NCBI RefSeq assembly: GCF_900185725.1
Contig: NZ_FYAU01000002.1
Span: forward strand, 1-59,358
Length of the DNA: 59,358 nucleotides
Direction: 5' to 3'
Origin: Stappia sp. TSB10P1A
GTDB taxonomy: Bacteria > Pseudomonadota > Alphaproteobacteria > Rhizobiales > Stappiaceae
Numbering within the stretch: the first letter of the stretch is position 1; each line of letters begins with the position of its first letter. This document shows positions 8,570-49,752 of this stretch, in pieces. The position numbers and the translations under genes are program-made. The notes below the pieces were generated by a model, which was given only the letters and a program-made list of their open reading frames with translations, made no database searches and was not told where the DNA came from.

Positions 8570-8988
8570 GCGAAGAGCAGCGGGAACCGGACGGTCTGGC
8601 GGAGCCGGACGAGGGTTACGACGAGGATCTTCTCGATCTGTTCGACGACTATCGCGAGTCCTTCGAGGACTACGACGCGGAAGGGGTGGCCGACTGCTTC
8701 GCCTATCCGGCGGTGATCTGGCAGTTCGGCAAGGGCAATGTCTTCCAGGACGAGGAGGAACTGCTCGAGAATATCGAGACGCTGTTCGCCGCGCTGGAAA
8801 AGGAAGGGGTGGTGACCTCGGCCTTCGACATTCTCTCCGCCCATGTGGAGGGCGATGCCGCCATGGCGACGCTCACCTGGACCCAGTCGGACGCCGACGG
8901 CGAGCCGGTGATCGAGTTCACCTGCCACTACCATCTGATCTATGACGGCGATGCCTGGCGCATCGCCATGATCGTCAACGAGCCCTGA
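8566..8988 (+). CDS. NTF2-like/SnoaL-fold protein embedded in the repair operon
   Basis: A 140-residue acidic protein. The first 30 residues are a Glu/Asp-rich lead. The rest has the layout of a small NTF2-like cone fold (SnoaL/DUF4440 type): helix with F-x-D-Y, then D-C-F-A-Y-P, then strands ending H-Y-H-L-I-Y-D-G-D-A-W-R-I. No catalytic triad is evident. It overlaps the exonuclease stop by four bases and lies 19 bases before the ligase, so it is co-translated with repair enzymes. It is not one of the four canonical products of this cluster; its role is unknown. Confidence 0.75.
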   Translation: MSEEQREPDGLAEPDEGYDEDLLDLFDDYRESFEDYDAEGVADCFAYPAVIWQFGKGNVFQDEEELLENIETLFAALEKEGVVTSAFDILSAHVEGDAAMATLTWTQSDADGEPVIEFTCHYHLIYDGDAWRIAMIVNEP

Positions 8989-14064: not shown

Positions 14065-14544
14065 ATGCGGCAGAGCTATCGCAACCCGACCTTTGAAACC
14101 TGGACCTTCGAGGACGACGGGCTCGACCTGCGCCAGCGCATGGGGCGGCTGATGGTGGCGACCACGGGACAGCGCTTCTACGGCATCGGCCGCAGCCTCG
14201 GAGCCTGGCTGGCCGAGCAGAATGCCCGCGACGGCGAGCTGTCGGTGTTTCTCCGGCACACCTCGGCCTCTCTGACCATCCAGGAGAACGCCGATCCGGA
14301 CGTGCAGGCCGACCTGCTCGACGCCTTGGCGCGCCTTGCCCCGGAGGATGCCGGCTGGCGTCACCGCTCGGAAGGACCCGACGACATGCCGGCGCATGTG
14401 AAGACCATGCTGACCGGCGTCAGCCTGCGGGTGCCGGTGGTGGCCGGGCGGCTGGACCTCGGCACCTGGCAGGAGGTCTATCTGGTGGAGCACCGGCGCG
14501 ACAGCCAGCAGCGCAGCCTGACGCTGCGCTACCTGGGCACCTGA
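14065..14544 (+). CDS. yjbQ: UPF0047 (YjbQ) family protein
   Basis: A 159-residue protein with the UPF0047 signature HTSASLTIQENADP at about residues 68-81 and the closing W-Q-E-V-Y-L-V-E-H stretch. E. coli YjbQ has weak thiamin-phosphate-synthase-like activity, but the physiological role is unsettled. GGCGGA precedes the ATG. It faces the proline iminopeptidase gene tail-to-tail with 13 bases between stops. Confidence 0.85.
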   Translation: MRQSYRNPTFETWTFEDDGLDLRQRMGRLMVATTGQRFYGIGRSLGAWLAEQNARDGELSVFLRHTSASLTIQENADPDVQADLLDALARLAPEDAGWRHRSEGPDDMPAHVKTMLTGVSLRVPVVAGRLDLGTWQEVYLVEHRRDSQQRSLTLRYLGT

Positions 14545-25020: not shown

Positions 25021-26205
25021 ATGCATGAAGAGCATAATCCCAGGGTATTAGCAGTGCCCAGTGTATCCGAGGCGCGCCTTGAGAGCGTGCTGGGCACCGC
25101 GGTGGACGGCATCGTCGTGATGGACGAGCGCGCCCGGATCCTGCTTTTCAACAAGGCCTGCGAAACCCTGTTCGGCTACAGCGCCGAGGAGGTGCGTGGG
25201 CGCAACGTCAAGGTGCTGATGCCGGCCGACTACGCGCACGCCCATGACGGCTATGTCCACAACTACCTGGAGACCGGAGAGAAGCGCATCATCGGCATCG
25301 GCCGCGAGGTGCGCGGCATGCATCGCGACGGCACCGAGTTTCCCATCGAGCTCTCCGTCGGCGAGGCGGCGACCCCGGAAGGGCGCCAGTTCATCGGCAT
25401 CATCCGCGACCTGCGCCAGCGCAAGGCGGTGGAACGGCGGCTGGCCGAGGCGCAGGCGCAACTGGTCAGCATGACCCGGATCAGCGCGCTGGACGAAATG
25501 GGCGCGGCGATCGCCCATGAGCTGAACCAGCCGCTGACCGCGATCATGCTCTATCTGCAGGCGGCCAAGCGCAAGGTCGGCGACGACCATCGCGACACCA
25601 AGCTGATCGAGATCGTCGACAAGGGCGTGCGCGAGGCGGAGCGGGCCAGCCAGATCATCCAGCGCATGCGGCGCTTCGTGGAAAAGCGCGATCCGGAGCG
25701 GCGTCCGGTATGTGTCTCGCGGCTGGTCGGCGAGTGCCTCGAACTGGTGACGCTCGGCATCGACTGCCGGGACGTCGAGATCGTGAATGAAGTCGGCGAG
25801 GACCTCCCGGACCTCAGCGTCGATCCTGTGCAGATCCAGCAGATCCTGGTCAATCTGATAAGGAATGCGCTCGACGCGGTGCGACAGGCTCCGGTAAAGC
25901 GTGTCGGGATAACGGCGGCTGCGGCCGGCGAGGACATGCTGATTCGGATCACCGATTCCGGTGGCGGCGTTCCGGCGGAAGTCGTGCCGACCCTGTTCAG
26001 GGCGTTTTCCGGCGCCAAGAAGGGTGGGTTGGGCCTCGGCCTGACGATCTCCCGCTCGATCGCTCAGAATCACGGCGGCGATCTTGCCGTCGAACCCAAT
26101 GGTGGAGAAGGGGGAGCTGCCTTCGTGTTGCGCCTGCCGGTAGTCACGCCACCGCGTGATGGCCAGGCGGACGCGCCCCCTGGCAGAAGAGGACAGACGG
26201 CATGA
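25021..26205 (+). CDS. fixL: FixL oxygen-sensing histidine kinase
   Basis: A 394-residue soluble sensor kinase without membrane segments. A single PAS domain (about 17-132) carries the FixL heme signature: the proximal histidine aligns with His75 in AHDGY and the distal arginine with Arg95 in IIGIGR. HisKA follows with His166 in IAHELNQPL, then HATPase (NLIRNALDAV, DSGGGVP, GGLGLGL). When oxygen leaves the heme the kinase phosphorylates FixJ. The position matching Arg206 of Bradyrhizobium FixL is Asn81 here. The stop overlaps the fixJ ATG by four bases. Confidence 0.92.
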   Translation: MHEEHNPRVLAVPSVSEARLESVLGTAVDGIVVMDERARILLFNKACETLFGYSAEEVRGRNVKVLMPADYAHAHDGYVHNYLETGEKRIIGIGREVRGMHRDGTEFPIELSVGEAATPEGRQFIGIIRDLRQRKAVERRLAEAQAQLVSMTRISALDEMGAAIAHELNQPLTAIMLYLQAAKRKVGDDHRDTKLIEIVDKGVREAERASQIIQRMRRFVEKRDPERRPVCVSRLVGECLELVTLGIDCRDVEIVNEVGEDLPDLSVDPVQIQQILVNLIRNALDAVRQAPVKRVGITAAAAGEDMLIRITDSGGGVPAEVVPTLFRAFSGAKKGGLGLGLTISRSIAQNHGGDLAVEPNGGEGGAAFVLRLPVVTPPRDGQADAPPGRRGQTA

Positions 26206-26819
26206 GTGCCACTGCGCATCTGATCCATATCGTCGACGACGATCCGGCGATTCGTGACGCGTTGACTCTCGTCTTCGAGTTGGAAGGCTACAGCGTGGCC
26301 TCGTTCGAGACCGGCGAGGCGTTCCTGGATCAGGTCGCGCGACCGAGCTCCCGGCCCGGATGCGTGATCCTCGATGTGCACATGCCCGGACAGTCCGGCA
26401 TCGAGATCCTGCGCCGTCTCCATGCGGAGCGGTTCGCCCCCCCGGTCTTCGTGATCTCCGGCCAGGGCGACATCCCCATGGCGGTCGAGGCGATCAAGCA
26501 GGGCGCGCACGATTTCATCGAGAAGCCGTTCGATGCCGAGACCGTGGTGACGCGGGTTCGCGAGGCGATCGAAGTGAGCGAGCGCAAGCAGGCGGACGCC
26601 GGCAGCCCGCCGCTGCGCAGCTTTCCGGGCAACGAGACGCTGACCCCCCGCGAACGGGAGGTGCTGGAGGAGATCACCGCCGGCGCCTCCAACAAGGAGG
26701 CGGGCCGCACGCTGGGCATCAGCCCGCGGACCATCGAGGTGCACCGGGCCCGCATCATGGAGAAGCTCGGCGCGCGCAACGCAGCCGATCTGGTGCGCAT
26801 CGTTCTCTCCCACGAATAG
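26202..26819 (+). CDS. fixJ: FixJ response regulator
   Basis: A 205-residue two-domain regulator: receiver with VDDD at 11-14, phospho-acceptor Asp58 in VILDVHMPG, and Lys in FIEKPF; C-terminal LuxR-type helix-turn-helix (LTPREREVLEEI, SPRTIEVHRARIMEKL). The start overlaps the fixL stop (ATGA), so stoichiometry is translationally coupled. Phospho-FixJ is expected to activate fixK, which lies 0.9 kb downstream. Confidence 0.93.
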   Translation: MSATAHLIHIVDDDPAIRDALTLVFELEGYSVASFETGEAFLDQVARPSSRPGCVILDVHMPGQSGIEILRRLHAERFAPPVFVISGQGDIPMAVEAIKQGAHDFIEKPFDAETVVTRVREAIEVSERKQADAGSPPLRSFPGNETLTPREREVLEEITAGASNKEAGRTLGISPRTIEVHRARIMEKLGARNAADLVRIVLSHE

Positions 26820-27701: not shown

Positions 27702-28400
27702 ATGGCCTACCTGGATCGGACTTCCGAGACTATAGGGCAGCAGCGGGTCACGGGACGCGCTGTGCGCGAGGTCGCCAAGACGCCGACGGCGCGTGTGCAG
27801 CGGCACGAACAGCACCATGTCATTTTCTATGAGGGCGATCAGGCCGAGCGGATCTTCGAGCTGCAGGACGGTATCGTCATGCTCTACAAGCTTCTGCCGG
27901 ACGGTCGCCGTCAGGTGGTCGAGATCCTCAACCGCGGCATGATCTTCGGGACGGCGGGGGGCGAGCGCTACGACTGCTCGGCCGAGACGCTGACGCCCGT
28001 GCGGCTGGCGGTTCACGACCGCCGCGAGGTCGACGCCTCGGCCGTGCTGCAGAGCCATGTGGCGAAGTGCCTGATGTCGCAGATGGAGCGCCTGCACGAG
28101 CATGCGATGCTGCTCGGCCGCAAGTCCGCGATGGAGCGGGTCGCCAGCTATCTCATCCGCATGGTGCCGAACCGCGGCGGCGAGGGCTGCACCGGCCCGC
28201 TCTCCGAGACCTGCGACCCGCACGACCTGGTGCTCACCATGACGCGCCAGGAAATCGCCGACTATCTCGGCCTGACCATCGAGACGGTCAGCCGGGTGAT
28301 CTCCGAATTGAAGCGTCGCGGTGTGATCCGCCTGGAGCGGCAGGACCGTATTCATGTGACCCGTGTCTGCGGCCTGTGCCAGTTGACCGGAATCCACTGA
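27702..28400 (+). CDS. fixK: FixK-type Crp/Fnr family transcription regulator
   Basis: A 232-residue Crp/Fnr protein: cyclic-nucleotide-like beta barrel (about 35-130), dimer helix, and winged helix (about 165-225) with the Fnr-type recognition helix ETVSRVISELKR, whose Glu-Ser-Arg pattern reads TTGA half-sites. It lacks the N-terminal cysteine cluster of oxygen-labile Fnr, so it fits FixK, controlled through FixLJ, rather than FnrL. Cysteines do occur in GEGC, ETC and the C-terminal CGLCQ. Matching TTGA-N6-TCAA boxes lie before hemN, ccoN, ccoG and the HlyD-type gene in this window. Confidence 0.88.
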   Translation: MAYLDRTSETIGQQRVTGRAVREVAKTPTARVQRHEQHHVIFYEGDQAERIFELQDGIVMLYKLLPDGRRQVVEILNRGMIFGTAGGERYDCSAETLTPVRLAVHDRREVDASAVLQSHVAKCLMSQMERLHEHAMLLGRKSAMERVASYLIRMVPNRGGEGCTGPLSETCDPHDLVLTMTRQEIADYLGLTIETVSRVISELKRRGVIRLERQDRIHVTRVCGLCQLTGIH

Positions 28401-28531: not shown

Positions 28532-29881
28532 TCAGACGGCCACCGAATGGCGGGCCAGCCCGCTCTGCAGGTAGATGTCGAACGCGGCGGCCGCGATCCG
28601 GGCATACGGTGCCCCGCGCGGCGTCACCCGGATGCGGGCGCCGTCGATCTCCACCAGCCCGTCCTCGACCAATTCGCCAAGATCGGCCATGCTGCCGGAG
28701 AAATGCGCCAGCGGCAGGCCGTGGGCGGCCGCGATCTCGCCGATATCGGCCGCATGCTCGGTCATCAGCCGTTCGATGATGTCGGCGCGGGCGCGGTCGT
28801 CGGCATCGAGAGCGATGCCGCGCGCCACCGGCAGCAGTCCGTCGGCGATCGCCCGGCTCCAACCGCCGGTGTCCGGCATGTTCTGGATGTATCCCTGGGG
28901 CAGGCGGCCGATCGAGGAGGCGCCGAAGCCGATCAGCGTGTCGGCGGTGTCGGTGGTGTAGCCCTGGAAGTTGCGGCGCAGGCGGCCGGCATCGAGCGCC
29001 TGTGCCATCGTGTCGTCGGGCATGGCGAAATGATCGAGGCCGATGGCCCTGTAGCCGGCCTCGATCAGGTGGGCGCGGGCGTGATCGGCCATGGCGATGC
29101 GCTCGCGCGAGTCCGGCAGCCGGCTCTCGTCGATCAGCCGCTGGTGCTTCTTCATCCAGGGCACATGGGCATAGCCGAACAGGGCGATGCGTCCCGGCGC
29201 GAGATCCCGCGTCAGCCGGATCGTCTCGGTGACCGTTTCCAGCGTCTGGAACGGCAGGCCGTACATCAGGTCGAAATTCAGTGCGTCGATGCCGACCGCG
29301 CGCAACCGCTCGACGGCGCTTGCCACCTGCTCGAACGGCTGCACCCGGCCGATGGCCTTCTGCACCACCGGGTCGAAGTCCTGCACGCCGAGGCTGGCGC
29401 GGGTGATGCCGGCCTCGCGCAGCGTCTCCGCCAGTTCCTCCGTCACCGTGCGCGGGTCGAGCTCGATCGCGTGCTCGTGGGCGGGATCGAAGACGAAATG
29501 TCTATGCAGCCGCTCGACCACGGACAGGAACTGGGCGCGCGGAAGCAGGCTCGGCGTGCCGCCGCCCCAGTGGATGTGCACGGTCCGGCTGCGCTGCGGC
29601 AGCCGCTCGGCGACCAGGTCGATTTCCGCCAGCAGCGCGTCCGTATAGTCGAGCAGCGGCTCGTCGCGCCGCGCCGCCTTGGTGTGGCAGCCGCAATAGG
29701 AGCAGATCACCCGGCAATAGGGGACATGCAGATAGAGGGACAGCGGCGTATCGGCTGGCAGTCCCGCCAGCCAGTCGCCATAGGTCGCCCCGGTGACGCC
29801 GGCATGGAAATGCGGCGCGGTCGGGTAGCTGGTGTAGCGCGGCACGGAACGTGTCGCATAGCGGTGGTCAAGGTTGCTCAT
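28532..29881 (-). CDS. hemN: oxygen-independent coproporphyrinogen III oxidase HemN
   Basis: A 449-residue radical-SAM enzyme. Cys56, Cys60 and Cys63 form the [4Fe-4S] motif C-x3-C-x2-C in VPYCRVICSYCGCH, followed by GGGTPS and the HemN C-terminal domain. The N-terminal VPRYTSYPTAPHF is diagnostic for true HemN, not HemW. It converts coproporphyrinogen III to protoporphyrinogen IX without oxygen, supplying heme for cbb3 oxidase when oxygen is low. A perfect FixK/Fnr box lies just upstream. Confidence 0.93.
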   Translation of the reverse strand: MSNLDHRYATRSVPRYTSYPTAPHFHAGVTGATYGDWLAGLPADTPLSLYLHVPYCRVICSYCGCHTKAARRDEPLLDYTDALLAEIDLVAERLPQRSRTVHIHWGGGTPSLLPRAQFLSVVERLHRHFVFDPAHEHAIELDPRTVTEELAETLREAGITRASLGVQDFDPVVQKAIGRVQPFEQVASAVERLRAVGIDALNFDLMYGLPFQTLETVTETIRLTRDLAPGRIALFGYAHVPWMKKHQRLIDESRLPDSRERIAMADHARAHLIEAGYRAIGLDHFAMPDDTMAQALDAGRLRRNFQGYTTDTADTLIGFGASSIGRLPQGYIQNMPDTGGWSRAIADGLLPVARGIALDADDRARADIIERLMTEHAADIGEIAAAHGLPLAHFSGSMADLGELVEDGLVEIDGARIRVTPRGAPYARIAAAAFDIYLQSGLARHSVAV

Positions 29882-29915: not shown

Positions 29916-29929
29916 TTGATCCTGCTCAA
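29916..29929 (-). promoter_or_regulatory. FixK/Fnr box upstream of hemN
   Basis: A perfect TTGA-TCCTGC-TCAA. Its centre is 41.5 bases from the hemN ATG, so a class II arrangement would start the transcript at the start codon itself. No good -10 is visible on the hemN strand. It could also serve the divergent AbrB-type gene. Confidence 0.75.
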
Positions 29930-30055
29930 CGTCGCGGACATGCGATTATGCATGGCAGGCTTGCAGAGAACGCATGCCGGCCCGACGCGTTTCTTGGTCT
30001 ATTGCCCAATCACTCACCCAGTTTCCGGATCCGCTCGGGTCCGCGGCGGATTCCC

Positions 30056-31249: not shown

Positions 31250-31290
31250 TTGACCTGGATCAAGGCGGCTTCGAGCCAATCGGCGATACC
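31250..31290 (+). promoter_or_regulatory. FixK/Fnr-dependent promoter of ccoNOQP
   Basis: A perfect box TTGA-CCTGGA-TCAA at 31250-31263 is followed by a -10-like GATACC at 31285-31290. The box centre is then near -41.5, the class II activator position, with a leader of about 45 bases before the ccoN ATG at 31344. Promoter geometry is inferred. Confidence 0.85.
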
Positions 31291-38060: not shown

Positions 38061-38444
38061 GGAAGTGTCCCTCCTCGAAGTCTACCCGTCTGGAAGCGGT
38101 GCCGGATCTGCCGTCCGGTCGTGCCCGCCGATCGGAAAGGATAGCGGCGGGCGGCGGAAGAGGTTGTGCAATTGTGGCCAGAGGCGCAGGATCGAGGACG
38201 GTTTTCCGGCGCCGCATCGCTTGACGCCGATCAAGGCGGCGGGCTGCCGCGTCGGATAGTGTCGTCGGCACAGGCTGCGGAGCCGGTCCCGGCTGCCGGC
38301 GGCGGATTGTCGCGGAGCTGACGTGTCGCAATCCGCTCGTTGGCGGCGGGCGGTAGACTCGCGCCGAAACGGGCGCCTCCGCCGGAACCCGACAGCATCC
38401 CGAATTCGGGACGGCGGAACCCATAGAGATGGGAGCCCACTGAG
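38061..38444. promoter_or_regulatory. divergent amine oxidase/ccoG control region
   Basis: No gene is visible in these 384 bases. It contains the FixK/Fnr box at 38221-38234 and, toward ccoG, a -10-like GATAGT. GAGGAGGGACAC lies before the amine oxidase ATG, and GGGAG before ccoG. No clear sigma70 promoter was found for the amine oxidase. Confidence 0.5.
38221..38260 (+). promoter_or_regulatory. FixK/Fnr-dependent promoter of ccoGHIS
   Basis: A perfect TTGA-CGCCGA-TCAA at 38221-38234 is followed by GATAGT at 38255-38260, the same spacing as in the ccoN promoter. The leader would be about 175 bases. The box is also 160 bases from the divergent amine oxidase start. Confidence 0.85.
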
Positions 38445-44216: not shown

Positions 44217-44291
<75 letters not shown>

Positions 44292-44332
44292 TCCATCCCC
44301 TTGAAATCGTTATTCTCCCTTGCTTTTTGGCC

Positions 44333-44400
44333 GCTGTTCGCAAGTCTCCAGTCGATCTGCGTGCAGGAACACGCAGATCGACTGGAGACTTGCGAACAGC
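44333..44400. repeat. perfect 31-bp inverted repeat (hairpin) downstream of tRNA-Thr
   Basis: Arms 44333-44363 and 44370-44400 are exact complements over 31 bases with a 6-nt CAGGAA loop. The left arm begins GCTGTTCGCAAGTC. No T-tract or coding frame accompanies it, and no transposase lies between or beside the arms. Confidence 0.9.
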
Positions 44401-44716
44401 TGCGGGATCTGGCGCCAGTTTATGCCCGGATTGGTGCAGGTGACGGGTAGGTGGCCGATGTGAAGGCGATTGCCGTCGGCGCCGCCAATGATCTCGTCTG
44501 CGCTGACTGGGGTCGTGTTGCTCAGTCGATTGCTGCGATCGGAAAGCGTTGCTTCCTGTCGGTGCGGCTCGGCTCACGCTGCCCAACGGCCTCAAGATCC
44601 GTGCCTTGCAAGCAAGATGCAGCACCGATCAGGCTGTGATGCCGCAATAGTATGCAAGTCCTGCGGTCAAGGCTCGATGGCGGCAGGCAAAATTTACCCT
44701 TTACGATGACCCACCT

Positions 44717-44758
44717 TTGACTGACATCAAATGGTTGTGCACGCGGGTGCCCTAAGCG
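44717..44758 (+). promoter_or_regulatory. FixK/Fnr-type promoter before the HlyD/RbbA operon
   Basis: A perfect TTGA-CTGACA-TCAA at 44717-44730 with a -10-like TAAGCG at 44753-44758. The box-to-(-10) spacing is within one base or so of that at ccoN and ccoG. The leader before ATG 44841 would be about 75 bases. Confidence 0.7.
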
Positions 44759-44840
44759 TGCATTATGCAAAGCATGATCGGCGCTGTGCAGGCGCAGGCC
44801 GACATGACGCCATGCATTTTCTGTTTGCAAGGGACTTTCG

Positions 44841-45821
44841 ATGAAGTGGAAACAGGTCATCGCCGTGACGGCTCTGATCGCGGCCGTCGCGGGCGGGTTC
44901 TATCTGTGGCGCACGATGAACACCGAGACGCTGCCCCACGGCATCGCCGCTTCGAACGGCAGGATCGAAGCCGAGCGCGTCGACGTTGCCACCAAGATGG
45001 CCGGGCGCGTGACGGAGGTCCTGGTCAGCGAGGGCGAGATGGTCGAGGCAGGGCAACTCGTCGCGCGCATGGATGTGTCGGAACTCAACGCCCGGCTCGC
45101 CCAGGCCCGCGCCACGGTCGCCCAGGCCGAGCAGGGTCTGCGCCAGTCCGAAGCGCAGGTCGCCTTGTACGAGGCCAAGCGCGACCTCGCCGAAAAGGAG
45201 CATCAGCGCACCGTCGCGCTGGTTGAGCGGCAGGTGAGCTCGCAGGAGCTGGCCGACCAGCGGCGCACCGCGTTCGACACCGCCGTGGCGGGGGTGGAAG
45301 CGGCCAAGGCCGGCGTCGGACTTGCCAAGGCCACCATCGAGTCGGCCAAGGCAGCAGTCGCCCAGCTCGAAGCCATTCTCGACGACACCCAGTTGCGCGC
45401 GCCCCGCGGCGGCCGGGTCCAGTACCTTTTGGCCCGCGAAGGCGAGGTGCTCGGCGCCGGCGGCAAGGTGCTCACCCTCACCGATCTGACCGACATCTAC
45501 ATGACCATTTTCCTGCCGGCACGCGATGCCGGTCTGCTGCAGGTCGGCAGCGAAGCGCGCCTGATCCTCGACCCCATTCCCGACTACGTCATCCCGGCGA
45601 ATGTCACCTTCGTCGCCAGCAATGCCCAGTTCACACCGAAGTCGGTGGAAACGTCGGATGAGCGCGAGAACCTGATGTTCCGGGTGAAGCTGTCCATCCC
45701 GAAGGATCTTCTGACCCGGTACCAGGACCGCGCCAAGGCCGGTGTCGCAGGCGTCGGTTATGTGCGGACCGACCCTGCCATCGCCTGGCCGGGCTTCCTG
45801 GAGGTCAAGCTGCCGCAATGA
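44841..45821 (+). CDS. HlyD-family membrane fusion protein (YhiI/YbhG-like)
   Basis: A 326-residue periplasmic adaptor: N-terminal membrane anchor (about 5-23), lipoyl half-motif (GRIEAERVDVATKMAGRV, about 40-57), a coiled-coil hairpin (about 75-180), the second lipoyl half (L-R-A-P-R-G-G-R-V), and a beta-barrel domain. It would link the inner-membrane ABC transporter to an outer-membrane channel such as TolC. Its stop overlaps the next gene by four bases, so it is a subunit of the following ABC exporter. Confidence 0.88.
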   Translation: MKWKQVIAVTALIAAVAGGFYLWRTMNTETLPHGIAASNGRIEAERVDVATKMAGRVTEVLVSEGEMVEAGQLVARMDVSELNARLAQARATVAQAEQGLRQSEAQVALYEAKRDLAEKEHQRTVALVERQVSSQELADQRRTAFDTAVAGVEAAKAGVGLAKATIESAKAAVAQLEAILDDTQLRAPRGGRVQYLLAREGEVLGAGGKVLTLTDLTDIYMTIFLPARDAGLLQVGSEARLILDPIPDYVIPANVTFVASNAQFTPKSVETSDERENLMFRVKLSIPKDLLTRYQDRAKAGVAGVGYVRTDPAIAWPGFLEVKLPQ

Positions 45822-48574
45822 CGGGAGAACCGGCCGCCAGGCTGCAGGGCGTCACGCATCGCTATGGCGAGGTCGCAGCCCTCTGCGATGTCACGCTCGA
45901 CATTCCGGCCGGCTGCATGGCCGGCCTGATCGGCCCGGACGGGGTTGGCAAGTCGACCCTGCTGGCGATCGTCTCCGGCGTGCGCCGCATCCAGTCGGGT
46001 TCGGTAACGGTGTTCGGCGGCGATATGGCCAGCGCGGCCCATCGCCGGGCCTGCAGCCGGCGCGTCGCCTATATGCCGCAGGGGCTCGGCCGCAACCTCT
46101 ACCCAACCCTGTCGGTCCGCGAGAATCTCGATTTCTTCGGACGTCTGTTCGCACAGTCGGAGGCGGAGCGCGCGGAGCGGATCCACGCGCTGCTGGAAGC
46201 CACCGGCCTTGCGCCGTTTCCCGATCGCCCGGCCGGCAAGCTTTCCGGCGGCATGAAGCAGAAATTGTCGCTCTGCTCCGCCCTCATCCACGATCCGGAC
46301 CTTCTGATCCTTGATGAACCCACCACCGGCATCGATCCGCTCTCGCGCGAGCAGTTCTGGGAGCTGATCGCCAGCATCCGGCGCGACCGCCCGCACATGA
46401 GCGTCATCGTCGCCACCGCCTATATGGAGGAGGCCGAACGCTTCGACTGGCTGGCCGCCATGATGGATGGGCGGATCATCGCTGAGGGCACGCCCGAGGC
46501 GCTGCGGCAGGCTGCCGGCGTCTCGACGCTGGAAGCTGCGTTCGTTGCCATGCTGCCGGAAGCCGAGCGGCGCGGACACCGTGCCGTCGAGGTGCCGCCG
46601 CGCGTGCCGATGGAGGGACCGCCGGCGATCGAGGCGCACGGCCTGACCTGCCGCTTCGGCGACTTCACCGCCGTCGACCATGTGAGTTTCGAAATCGAGC
46701 GCGGCGAAATCTTCGGTTTTCTGGGATCGAATGGCTGCGGCAAGTCGACCACGATGAAGATGCTGACCGGGCTTTTGCCGGCAAGCGAGGGCGATGCGCT
46801 GCTGTTCGGCGAGACGCTGAACGCCAACGACATGGCCACCCGGCGCCGCGTCGGCTACATGTCGCAGTCCTTCTCGCTCTATTCCGAGCTGACGGTGCGC
46901 CAGAACCTGGAGCTGCACGCAGCCCTCTACCGTCTCGCCCCCGAAACGCGCGCGGCCCGCATCGAGGAAATGCTGAGCACCTTCGACCTGCGGGGCGAGG
47001 CGGACATGCGGCCAAACGGGCTGCCGCTCGGCATCAGGCAGCGGCTGCAGCTTGCCGTGGCGCTGATCCACAAGCCGGAAGTGCTTATTCTCGATGAGCC
47101 GACCTCCGGCGTCGATCCGGTCGCACGGGACATTTTCTGGCAGTACCTGATCGACCTGTCGCGCAATCAGGGCGTGACGATCTTCATCTCGACCCATTTC
47201 ATGAACGAGGCGGAGCGGTGCGACCGCATCTCGCTGATGCATGCGGGCAGGGTGCTGGCCGTCGGCGCGCCCGACGAACTGACCCGCAGCAAGGGCGCGG
47301 CCAGCCTGAACGACGCCTTCATCGAGATTCTGCGCGAGGCGTCCGGGCAGGACGTCTCACCCGAACCGGTCAGGGCAGCTCCGGTTTCGGAACCCGAAGT
47401 TCCAGCCCCGCGGCCGGCTCCGGCGTCCATCGCGGATACAGGCGGATTTTTCAGCCCGTCGCGCCTTTGGGCGTTTGCCCGCCGCGAGACGATGGAACTG
47501 CTGCGCGATCCCATGCGGCTGGTCTTTGCCTTTCTCGGACCGGTCATCCTCATGCTGACCTTCGGTTACGGCATTTCGCTGGACGTCCAGAACCTGCCCT
47601 ATGCCGTGCTGGACCGCGACCGGTCCATGGAGAGCAGGACGCTGCTGGAGAGCTTCTCCGGCTCTCGCTATTTCGAGGAGCACGCGCCGGCGACCGGCAG
47701 GCGGGATCTGCAACAGCGCATGGTCGACGGCGAAATCAGCATCGGCATCGAGATTCCGCCCGGGTTTGGGCGCCAGCTCCTGCGCGGCGATACCCCGGAG
47801 ATCGATGTGCTGATCGACGGTGCGATGCCGTTCCGTGCAGAGACGGCGCGCGGCTATCTGCAGGGCCTGGCCCTTGGCTATTACACTGACCAGATCGAGC
47901 GGCAGTATGGCGAGGTGATCTCGCCCTATGCCACCGAGGTGGTCACCCGTTTCCGCTACAATCAGTCCTTCAAGAGCGTGTTCGCCATCGTGCCCTCGGT
48001 GATGATGCTGATGCTCGTCCTCATCCCCGCCATCATGACGGCAATGGGCGTGGTGCGCGAAAAGGAAACCGGTTCGATCGCCAATTTCCGCTCGACGCCG
48101 GTCACGCGCAGCGAGTTCCTGCTCGGCAAGCAGCTTCCCTATGTCGTCATCGCCCTGATCAGCTTCGCCAGCCTCGTCGCCATCGGCTATGTGGTGTTCG
48201 GTGTTCCCCTGAAGGGCTCTGCTCCGGCGCTCATTGTCGGAACCCTGTTCTACATCCTGGCAACAACGGCCTTCGGCCTTTTGGTGTCGACCTTCACCAG
48301 GACGCAGGTGGCCGCCACCTTCGCCGCCGCGATCATCGCCATCATTCCCGCCGTCAACTTTTCCGGCCTGATCGTGCCGGTCTCCTCGCTGTCGGGGAGC
48401 GGCCGCCTGCTTGGCCTGGCCTTCCCGTCCTCCTGGTATCAGCAGGTCAGCGTGGGCACCTTCACCAAGGGGCTGGGGTTCGCCGAGCTTTGGCACAATC
48501 ACCTGGCGCTGGCCGGTTTCGCGCTGTTCTTCACCGTCCTGTCGATCGCCATTCTGGACAAGCAGGAGACATAG
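45818..48574 (+). CDS. rbbA: RbbA-like fusion: two ABC ATPase domains plus ABC-2 permease
   Basis: A 918-residue protein, close to E. coli RbbA (about 911). ABC domain 1 (about 5-240) has Walker A GPDGVGKST (39-47) and signature LSGGMKQ (from 142). ABC domain 2 (about 265-490) has Walker A with K309 and DEPTSG, but its signature is degenerate (LPLGIRQ at 402-408). An Ala/Pro linker precedes an ABC-2 permease (about 560-918) with six helices and a large periplasmic loop. RbbA has been described as ribosome-associated, but gene order (HlyD, RbbA, YhhJ) points to an exporter. Substrate unknown. Confidence 0.88.
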   Translation: MTGEPAARLQGVTHRYGEVAALCDVTLDIPAGCMAGLIGPDGVGKSTLLAIVSGVRRIQSGSVTVFGGDMASAAHRRACSRRVAYMPQGLGRNLYPTLSVRENLDFFGRLFAQSEAERAERIHALLEATGLAPFPDRPAGKLSGGMKQKLSLCSALIHDPDLLILDEPTTGIDPLSREQFWELIASIRRDRPHMSVIVATAYMEEAERFDWLAAMMDGRIIAEGTPEALRQAAGVSTLEAAFVAMLPEAERRGHRAVEVPPRVPMEGPPAIEAHGLTCRFGDFTAVDHVSFEIERGEIFGFLGSNGCGKSTTMKMLTGLLPASEGDALLFGETLNANDMATRRRVGYMSQSFSLYSELTVRQNLELHAALYRLAPETRAARIEEMLSTFDLRGEADMRPNGLPLGIRQRLQLAVALIHKPEVLILDEPTSGVDPVARDIFWQYLIDLSRNQGVTIFISTHFMNEAERCDRISLMHAGRVLAVGAPDELTRSKGAASLNDAFIEILREASGQDVSPEPVRAAPVSEPEVPAPRPAPASIADTGGFFSPSRLWAFARRETMELLRDPMRLVFAFLGPVILMLTFGYGISLDVQNLPYAVLDRDRSMESRTLLESFSGSRYFEEHAPATGRRDLQQRMVDGEISIGIEIPPGFGRQLLRGDTPEIDVLIDGAMPFRAETARGYLQGLALGYYTDQIERQYGEVISPYATEVVTRFRYNQSFKSVFAIVPSVMMLMLVLIPAIMTAMGVVREKETGSIANFRSTPVTRSEFLLGKQLPYVVIALISFASLVAIGYVVFGVPLKGSAPALIVGTLFYILATTAFGLLVSTFTRTQVAATFAAAIIAIIPAVNFSGLIVPVSSLSGSGRLLGLAFPSSWYQQVSVGTFTKGLGFAELWHNHLALAGFALFFTVLSIAILDKQET

Positions 48575-48575
48575 A

Positions 48576-49703
48576 ATGCTTCTGTGGCTCGCCAATGTCT
48601 ATCGCCTGGGGGTCAAGGAACTCAGAAGCCTCGTCTTCGATCCCGTCCTGCTGCTGCTGATCGTCTATGTCTTCACGCTGGCGATCTATGCCGTTGCGAC
48701 AGGCGCCAAGCTCGAGGTGCTGAACGCGTCCGTCGCCTATGTCGACGAGGACCGTTCCGCCCTGTCCGGACGCATCATCAGCGCCATTCTGCCGCCGGAA
48801 TTCGATACCCCCGTCGAGATCTCCGCCGACCGGATCGACGCGAGCATGAACAGCGGCGCCTTTGTTTTCGTGCTGCGCTTTCCGCCGAATTTCGAAGCCG
48901 ATCTGCTGGCCGGTCGCAAGTCCGAGATCCAGCTCAATGTCGACGCGACCGCCATGGCCCAGGCGGGCAACGGTACGGTGTTCCTGCAGTCGATCATCCA
49001 GGCCGAGACCGCGAAGTTCCTGAGCGGCAACGAAAACGCCGCGGCGCTGCCGATCAACCTCGTCGTCCGTGCCATGTTCAACCCGAACCTCGACTCGAGC
49101 TGGTTCAACGCGGTGATGCAGGTGATCAACAACGTCACCCTCCTGTCGGTGCTTCTGACCGGGGCCGCGCTGATCCGCGAACGCGAGCACGGCACCATCG
49201 AGCATCTTCTGGTGATGCCGGTGAAGCCCTCCGAGATCATGGTGGCGAAGATCTGGGCGAACGGACTGGTCATCGTACTGGCCGCCGTTCTGTCGCTGGT
49301 CTTCGTGGTGCAGGGTCTGCTCGGCGTGCCGATCCACGGGTCGATTGCCCTGTTCGTCTTCGGGGCCCTGATCTACATGATCTCGGTAACGGGGCTCGGC
49401 ATCCTGATCGCCACCTTCACGACCTCGATGCCGCAGTTCGGCCTTCTCGCACTGCCGGTTCTGGTCATCATGAACCTGCTTTCCGGCAGCACCACGCCGA
49501 TGGAAAGCATGCCCGCATGGCTTCAGGCGATCATGCAGGCATCGCCCTCGACCCATTTCGTTGCCTTTGCCCAGGCCATTCTCTACCGCGGCGCAGGGCT
49601 GACGACCGTGTGGCCGTCACTCGTCGCGATGTCGGTTCTGAGCGCGGTTTTCTTCGTCATTGCCCTGTCGCGCTTCCGCACGACCATGGCCGGTGCGCGC
49701 TGA
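48576..49703 (+). CDS. yhhJ: ABC-2 type permease (YhhJ-like)
   Basis: A 375-residue ABC-2 permease: one N-terminal helix (about 22-42), a periplasmic domain (about 45-175), then five helices, with the charged E-R-E-H-G-T-I-E-H-L coupling helix near residue 210. AGGAG precedes the ATG, one base after the upstream stop. It forms the second membrane half for the RbbA-like protein. The operon ends here, 22 bases before the degenerate tRNA-end repeat. Confidence 0.88.
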   Translation: MLLWLANVYRLGVKELRSLVFDPVLLLLIVYVFTLAIYAVATGAKLEVLNASVAYVDEDRSALSGRIISAILPPEFDTPVEISADRIDASMNSGAFVFVLRFPPNFEADLLAGRKSEIQLNVDATAMAQAGNGTVFLQSIIQAETAKFLSGNENAAALPINLVVRAMFNPNLDSSWFNAVMQVINNVTLLSVLLTGAALIREREHGTIEHLLVMPVKPSEIMVAKIWANGLVIVLAAVLSLVFVVQGLLGVPIHGSIALFVFGALIYMISVTGLGILIATFTTSMPQFGLLALPVLVIMNLLSGSTTPMESMPAWLQAIMQASPSTHFVAFAQAILYRGAGLTTVWPSLVAMSVLSAVFFVIALSRFRTTMAGAR

Positions 49704-49725
49704 CCGCAACGCCAGAGTGGGCAGG

Positions 49726-49752
49726 GAGTTCAAGTCTCTCCAACGGCACCAT
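49726..49752. repeat. degenerate copy of the tRNA-Thr 3' end (candidate attR)
   Basis: The 27 bases match tRNA-Thr positions 44266-44292 at 23 sites, including GAGTTCAA, TCTCTCC and the final CACCAT with CCA. No intact tRNA surrounds it. Such a copy at the far end of a cargo operon is what site-specific integration into a tRNA gene leaves behind; no integrase remains in between. Confidence 0.55.

Follow-up and report, generated by a model that had tools for sequence, protein, structure and literature searches.

The hlyD-rbbA-yhhJ operon of Stappia sp. TSB10P1A very probably encodes a tripartite exporter that is induced at low oxygen from a class II FNR/FixK-type promoter, under the control of a FixLJ-FixK-like cascade, a reading drawn from sequence comparisons. 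The operon lies in a stretch of 59,358 nucleotides, analyzed here as a whole and called the window, about 2 kb past ccoG and copper P-type ATPase genes. Regulon links of this kind are already in print for other bacteria, and the Stappia operon is a well-supported new example.

The exporter operon

The first gene, hlyD (44841..45821, forward strand, as are the other two), encodes a periplasmic adaptor or membrane fusion protein (Pfam HlyD_3 and HlyD_D23), rbbA (45818..48574) encodes a fusion of two ABC ATPase domains with an ABC-2 membrane domain (NF033858), and yhhJ (48576..49703) encodes a second ABC-2 permease (Pfam ABC2_membrane_3). RbbA scores 1463 bits against NF033858, for which the curated equivalog cut-off is 1050, with residues 7-917 of 918 aligned, and its two ATPase domains and ABC-2 membrane domain are the domain make-up that defines the family. 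Walker A and B motifs are present in both ATPase domains, and the signature motif, LSGG in the first domain, is degenerate (LPLG) in the other. In a tripartite exporter, the two ATPase domains would come from RbbA, the halves of the membrane part from RbbA and YhhJ, and the periplasmic adaptor would be HlyD. Sequence searches of the PDB gave no substrate hint of weight, since the best-matching stretch of RbbA fell within an ATPase domain in 17/17 rows (ABCA1, ABCA3, ABCA4, ABCA7, and others; E up to 1e-40) and HlyD had no match at E up to 1e-8.

The operon could also be under low-oxygen control and yet encode an RbbA whose main work is at the ribosome rather than as a pump. Escherichia coli RbbA is associated with the ribosome both by its biochemistry and by its name, and NCBIfam names NF033858 a ribosome-associated ATPase/putative transporter; a literature search on RbbA as an ABC transporter or ribosome-associated ATPase returned nothing on its action or substrate, judged by titles and the opening lines of abstracts. 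We consider a chiefly ribosomal role unlikely here: RbbA itself includes an ABC-2 membrane domain, the genes on either side of it encode an HlyD adaptor and a further ABC-2 permease, and this hlyD-rbbA-yhhJ arrangement is also annotated in the plasmid relatives for which gene tables exist (L224, L226, L227, and L228).

A predicted class II promoter and its candidate regulator

A perfect FNR/FixK-type palindrome, TTGACTGACATCAA (TTGA-N6-TCAA), lies on the forward strand at 44717..44730, 110 nt 5' of hlyD. It is followed on the same strand by a predicted −10 element, TAAGCG (44753..44758), the TA of which begins 23 nt past the end of the box. At class II FNR/FixK promoters the activator is centered at −41.5, and by this rule the transcript of the exporter operon would start at about 44765. 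A further palindrome, TGCATTATGCA at 44759-44769, is centered on the predicted transcript start; its pattern, TGCA-N3-TGCA, is kept in 5/5 close genus members and absent from all others of the 115 upstream regions described below, and it may possibly be a repressor site.

The window contains four perfect TTGA-N6-TCAA boxes (at 29916, 31250, 38221, and 44717), all at the places before hemN, ccoN, ccoG, and the exporter where the first-pass annotation had put them. That annotation had estimated about 0.1 such boxes by chance, and their rarity holds up in shuffles of the window, which have a mean of 0.20 and reach four in 0/100 cases. The boxes before ccoN (31250..31263) and ccoG (38221..38234) are on the forward strand, and the one before hemN (29916..29929; hemN at 28532-29881 on the minus strand) is intergenic only if hemN starts at the inner ATG at 29881 and not at 29953, the start of the longest open reading frame. 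The inner start fits, since the alignment of the hemN model begins at residue 34 of the long open reading frame. The TA of a −10-like element follows the box by 23 nt at the exporter, 24 nt at ccoN, and 23 nt at ccoG, so the near-equal box-to-(−10) distance that had been claimed for the exporter and the two cco promoters is right.

The same window holds fixLJK-like genes on the forward strand: a FixL-like PAS histidine kinase (25021..26205; 325.6 bits, equivalog cut-off 850), a FixJ-like response regulator (26202..26819; 212.7 bits, cut-off 255), and a FixK-like Crp/Fnr regulator with an ETVSR helix (27702..28400). For the last of these, the FixK model is the best match at 119 bits, followed by FnrL at 102, both below the 300-bit equivalog cut-off, and inspected by eye, the N terminus of the protein shows no FNR-like set of Fe-S cysteines. 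With all three proteins under their cut-offs, the FixK-like gene and its fixLJ-like neighbors provide a candidate for the cognate regulator of the box. We infer that a drop in oxygen would lead the FixLJ-like pair to raise the level of the FixK-like regulator; bound to the box centered at about −41.5, this regulator would recruit polymerase and activate the operon, as at ccoN and ccoG.

It is also conceivable that the box is used mainly by another Crp/Fnr protein, for example a DNR/NnrR-like one, in which case the operon would respond to nitrogen oxides and not to low oxygen. A second Crp/Fnr-like protein is encoded on contig C14 (L184), and no NCBIfam model separates its type; its HTVSR helix, which we take to be a variant of NnrR-type proteins, is the reason that we leave nitrogen-oxide control some weight. 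The companion boxes, however, precede cco and hemN, and the FixK-like gene sits with fixLJ-like genes in the window. In passages of Dufour et al., 2010 (PMC2908626), FNR, FixK, and DNR are described as recognizing very similar sites, but an HlyD/ABC set is assigned there to FixK and not to DNR. Taken with the companion boxes, this makes a nitrogen-oxide regulator a quite improbable main user of the site, and the FixK-like protein remains our preferred candidate.

Conservation of the box upstream of orthologous operons

We collected 128 hlyD upstream regions: that of the window, 47 from loci found in a search of 121 genomes, and 80 from named loci (the best 80 of 581 confirmed). After two were dropped (L088 and L174), 126 were usable, and merging 11 near-duplicate pairs left 115, which still include five near relatives from the window's genus. 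A perfect site occurs within 300 bp in 28/115 regions (29 sites), compared to 0.56 on average and never more than 3 in 200 dinucleotide shuffles; the reversed pattern occurs in 1/115 regions and the perfect site in 0/112 coding control regions. The relaxed core NTGA-N6-TCAN is found in 47/115 regions against 7.6 in shuffled sequence and 4/112 in the coding control, and is absent within 300 bp in the other 68/115. The motif was not picked to fit, since TTGA-N6 ranked first (28 versus 0.62 in 60 shuffles) in an unbiased scan of all 4-base dyads with spacers of 0-12, the lower ranks of which are mostly pieces of the same site. The position of the −10-like TA recurs as well: of the 29 perfect sites, 21 are followed by a TA that begins at +23 (14 sites) or +22 (7 sites), each other position having 0 to 4, and the background chance of a TA at +22 or +23 in these regions is 0.055.

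To follow the box along the phylogeny, we used a FastTree of 119 RbbA proteins, 29 of them with a perfect box; six duplicate rows were left out, as was L081, where RbbA was not found, which removes genome G083 altogether. The box requires 16 changes on this tree compared to 26 when shuffled (0/500 as low), and 16 changes mean that it has often been gained or lost. The clade holding the window has a perfect box in 12/15 rows; of the exceptions, L053 and L103 have one mismatch with TA at 23, and L106 has no site. Variant sites appear elsewhere: a Rhizobium group (L117, L123, L125, L126, L137, and L139) has ATGA-N6-TCAA with TA at 22/23, and two Pseudomonas operons (L169 and L178) have CTGA-N6-TCAA with no TA at 22/23. 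Searching farther upstream where no box lies near hlyD gained little (7/54 named loci versus 2/54 for the reversed pattern), and TA stands at 22/23 in just one of the seven (L152). As an out-of-sample check, we examined five of 152 plasmid records, namely the four best matches and Paracoccus denitrificans. A perfect box with TA at 22/23 is present in 4/5 (Aestuarium zhoushanense, Pseudorhodobacter turbinis, Paracoccus seriniphilus, and Ancylobacter polymorphus), and no core site turned up within 400 bp in P. denitrificans PD1222.

Among 14 genomes of the same genus, that of the window included, eight have a near full-length RbbA match, and in the other six the best RbbA match has an E between 1.6e-36 and 1.4e-41. 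The nearest of the named loci (the best 80 of 581) is that of Stappia sp. WLB 29, at 96% identity. A perfect box precedes hlyD in 7/8 of the RbbA-bearing genomes. The eighth, G001, has two RbbA operons: the one on contig C29 (L053) has a box with one mismatch, in the last base, and for the one on contig C19 (L084) the last 300 bp hold no box, the only perfect one lying at −487. In the five closest genus upstream regions, 8/8 half-site columns and 3/6 spacer columns are invariant, as is the TA of the −10-like element, compared to 22/77 columns upstream of the box and 73/110 between the box and the start codon; since so many of the box-to-start columns are invariant anyway, the half-site invariance within the genus is modest evidence only.

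Within its own genome (5.13 Mb, 64 contigs), the pattern has 35 perfect matches compared to 8 for the reversed pattern. With so many sites, a lone perfect match is no proof, and it is the comparative data that carry the case. By rough codon-score gene calls, which wrongly place the hemN box inside a gene, 17/35 sites are intergenic, and a TA at 22/23 on either side accompanies 6/17 of these and 3/18 of the others, so perfect matches also occur without class II geometry. The remaining perfect boxes could help to define the wider low-oxygen regulon. That the exporter palindrome is itself a chance match without function, as the 18 of 35 sites inside predicted genes (by the same calls) might lead one to suspect, is extremely improbable and we reject it, given the 28/115 regions against a shuffle mean of 0.56, the top-ranked dyad at 28 versus 0.62, the promoter-like spacing, the recurrence in other genera, and the out-of-sample matches.

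Conservation upstream of orthologues had been named beforehand as a test on which the first-pass annotation could fail, and the claim survived it, with half-sites at 8/8 in the genus and recurrence in other genera. Its placement of the exporter in the low-oxygen (FixK/Fnr) regulon is thus supported by the motif and spacing tests as a prediction, with patchy presence as the main counter-result.

Related systems

The E. coli operon yhiI-rbbA-yhhJ presumably has the same three-gene order and the same families as the exporter operon, and we know of no low-oxygen control for it. The closest precedents come from other bacteria. Dufour et al., 2010 (PMC2908626), predicted an alphaproteobacterial FixK core regulon from this same shared motif. 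Their Table 1 counts RSP3160 (an HlyD family secretion protein), RSP3157 (an ABC permease), and RSP3159 (an ABC subunit) among the FixK targets. We liken these genes to hlyD-rbbA-yhhJ by description, RSP3158 not being listed in the table; the passages of that paper considered here mention neither Stappia nor a −10 spacing test for such an operon. In Pseudomonas aeruginosa, a passage of PMC13086522 places PA5231 (an 'ATP-binding/permease fusion ABC transporter') and PA5232 under Anr regulation with reference to Trunk et al., 2010, and a passage of PMC8575079 gives PA5232 as an HlyD family protein that is up under 'Anr' and 'Low O2', citing Trunk 2010 and Tribelli 2019; PMC6588701, in the part considered, is a further paper on PA5232-PA5231 and the Anr regulon. 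By these descriptions, PA5232-PA5231 are likely the P. aeruginosa counterparts of the exporter genes. The regulators differ, in that Anr is an Fe-S FNR-type protein and the Stappia candidate is a FixK-like protein. A literature search joining RbbA, Anr, and anaerobic growth found nothing, and the sole HlyD passage of PMC3751524 concerns a gene pair annotated as type I secretion. Relative to the passages of these papers, the additions made here are a case of the Stappia type, statistics on the spacing, and a dyad test across species.

Gene neighbors and a possible role

Gene neighborhoods may hint at what the exporter does. We counted neighbors in the 80 named loci (the best 80 of 581), using our own gene calls and up to five genes per side, with families assigned by blastp to one representative each at E up to 1e-15, a threshold that may also catch short-chain dehydrogenase kin of FabI; the expected frequency of such neighbors has no control. 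The families include acetate kinase (10 loci); phosphotransacetylase, enoyl-ACP reductase, and PHA synthase (9 each); Zn-alcohol dehydrogenase (5); and phosphoketolase, DUF3141, and beta-CASP hydrolase (4 each). At least one of them is present in 31/80 loci and none in 49/80, and of the ten gene calls that flank the operon in the window, none matches these families. The neighbors in the 31 relatives suggest a role for the exporter in low-oxygen carbon overflow. A broader reading, which we offer tentatively and think will more probably fail than hold, is that the exporter built on RbbA is in essence low-oxygen machinery coupled to overflow carbon metabolism. Across Proteobacteria it would accompany the genes of phosphotransacetylase, acetate kinase, phosphoketolase, enoyl-ACP reductase, and PHA synthase, under the control of FNR/FixK/Anr, and would export a fermentation- or lipid-related product. 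If this reading were true, the ribosome-ATPase label of RbbA would be secondary. We found no literature joining phosphoketolase, FixK, acetate kinase, and microoxic growth. Placement in a low-oxygen regulon, together with Pta, AckA, phosphoketolase, or PHA synthase neighbors in some of the relatives, indicates that a phenotype should be sought in microaerobic growth, a cue with which screening a deletion strain for the substrate becomes practical.

Four loci (L102, L103, L106, and L133) have CTGC-N3-GCAG 5' of hlyD, a pattern that we take to resemble the PhaR operator, and L102, L103, and L106 also have PHA synthase neighbors. As a general second control, a PhaR-type site was rejected (4/115 regions versus 0.83). 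Passages of two papers touch on HlyD genes in this setting: Bradyrhizobium blr7872 has a PhaR site and a 3.27-fold change in a phaR mutant (PMC6201568), and Sinorhizobium meliloti SMa0669 lies in a region responding to PHB-cycle mutations (PMC5596199). Both are HlyD genes by annotation.

tRNA-like sequences, repeats, and possible insertions around the operon

The only Rfam match over the window is a tRNA. A tRNA-Thr gene precedes the exporter at 44217-44291, and sequence resembling the 3' end of tRNA-Thr, in degenerate form, follows it closely at 49714-49751. Genome G002 has a further diverged tRNA-Thr-like copy after the exporter (L093, about 14247-14286), and G008 has a similar tRNA 3' end about 500 bp before it (L095, about 8943-8971); G005 and G012 gave the tRNA gene itself as their best match, with no copy seen after the exporter. 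Given the tRNA-like copies and the patchy presence of the exporter (8/14 same-genus genomes), an old tRNA-targeted insertion is possible. Between the tRNA gene and the exporter, at 44330-44403, lies an inverted repeat with 34-nt arms that are 97% complementary and 6 nt apart; it has no other copy in its own genome at E up to 0.001. At the site corresponding to 44336-44621 of the window, G002 has about 5.4 kb that is absent from the window (L093, 3736-9155), encoding an alpha/beta hydrolase, a LuxR-type regulator, an acyl-CoA dehydrogenase-like protein, and a cupin, and distances at this place in G005 and G012 are similar to those in G002.
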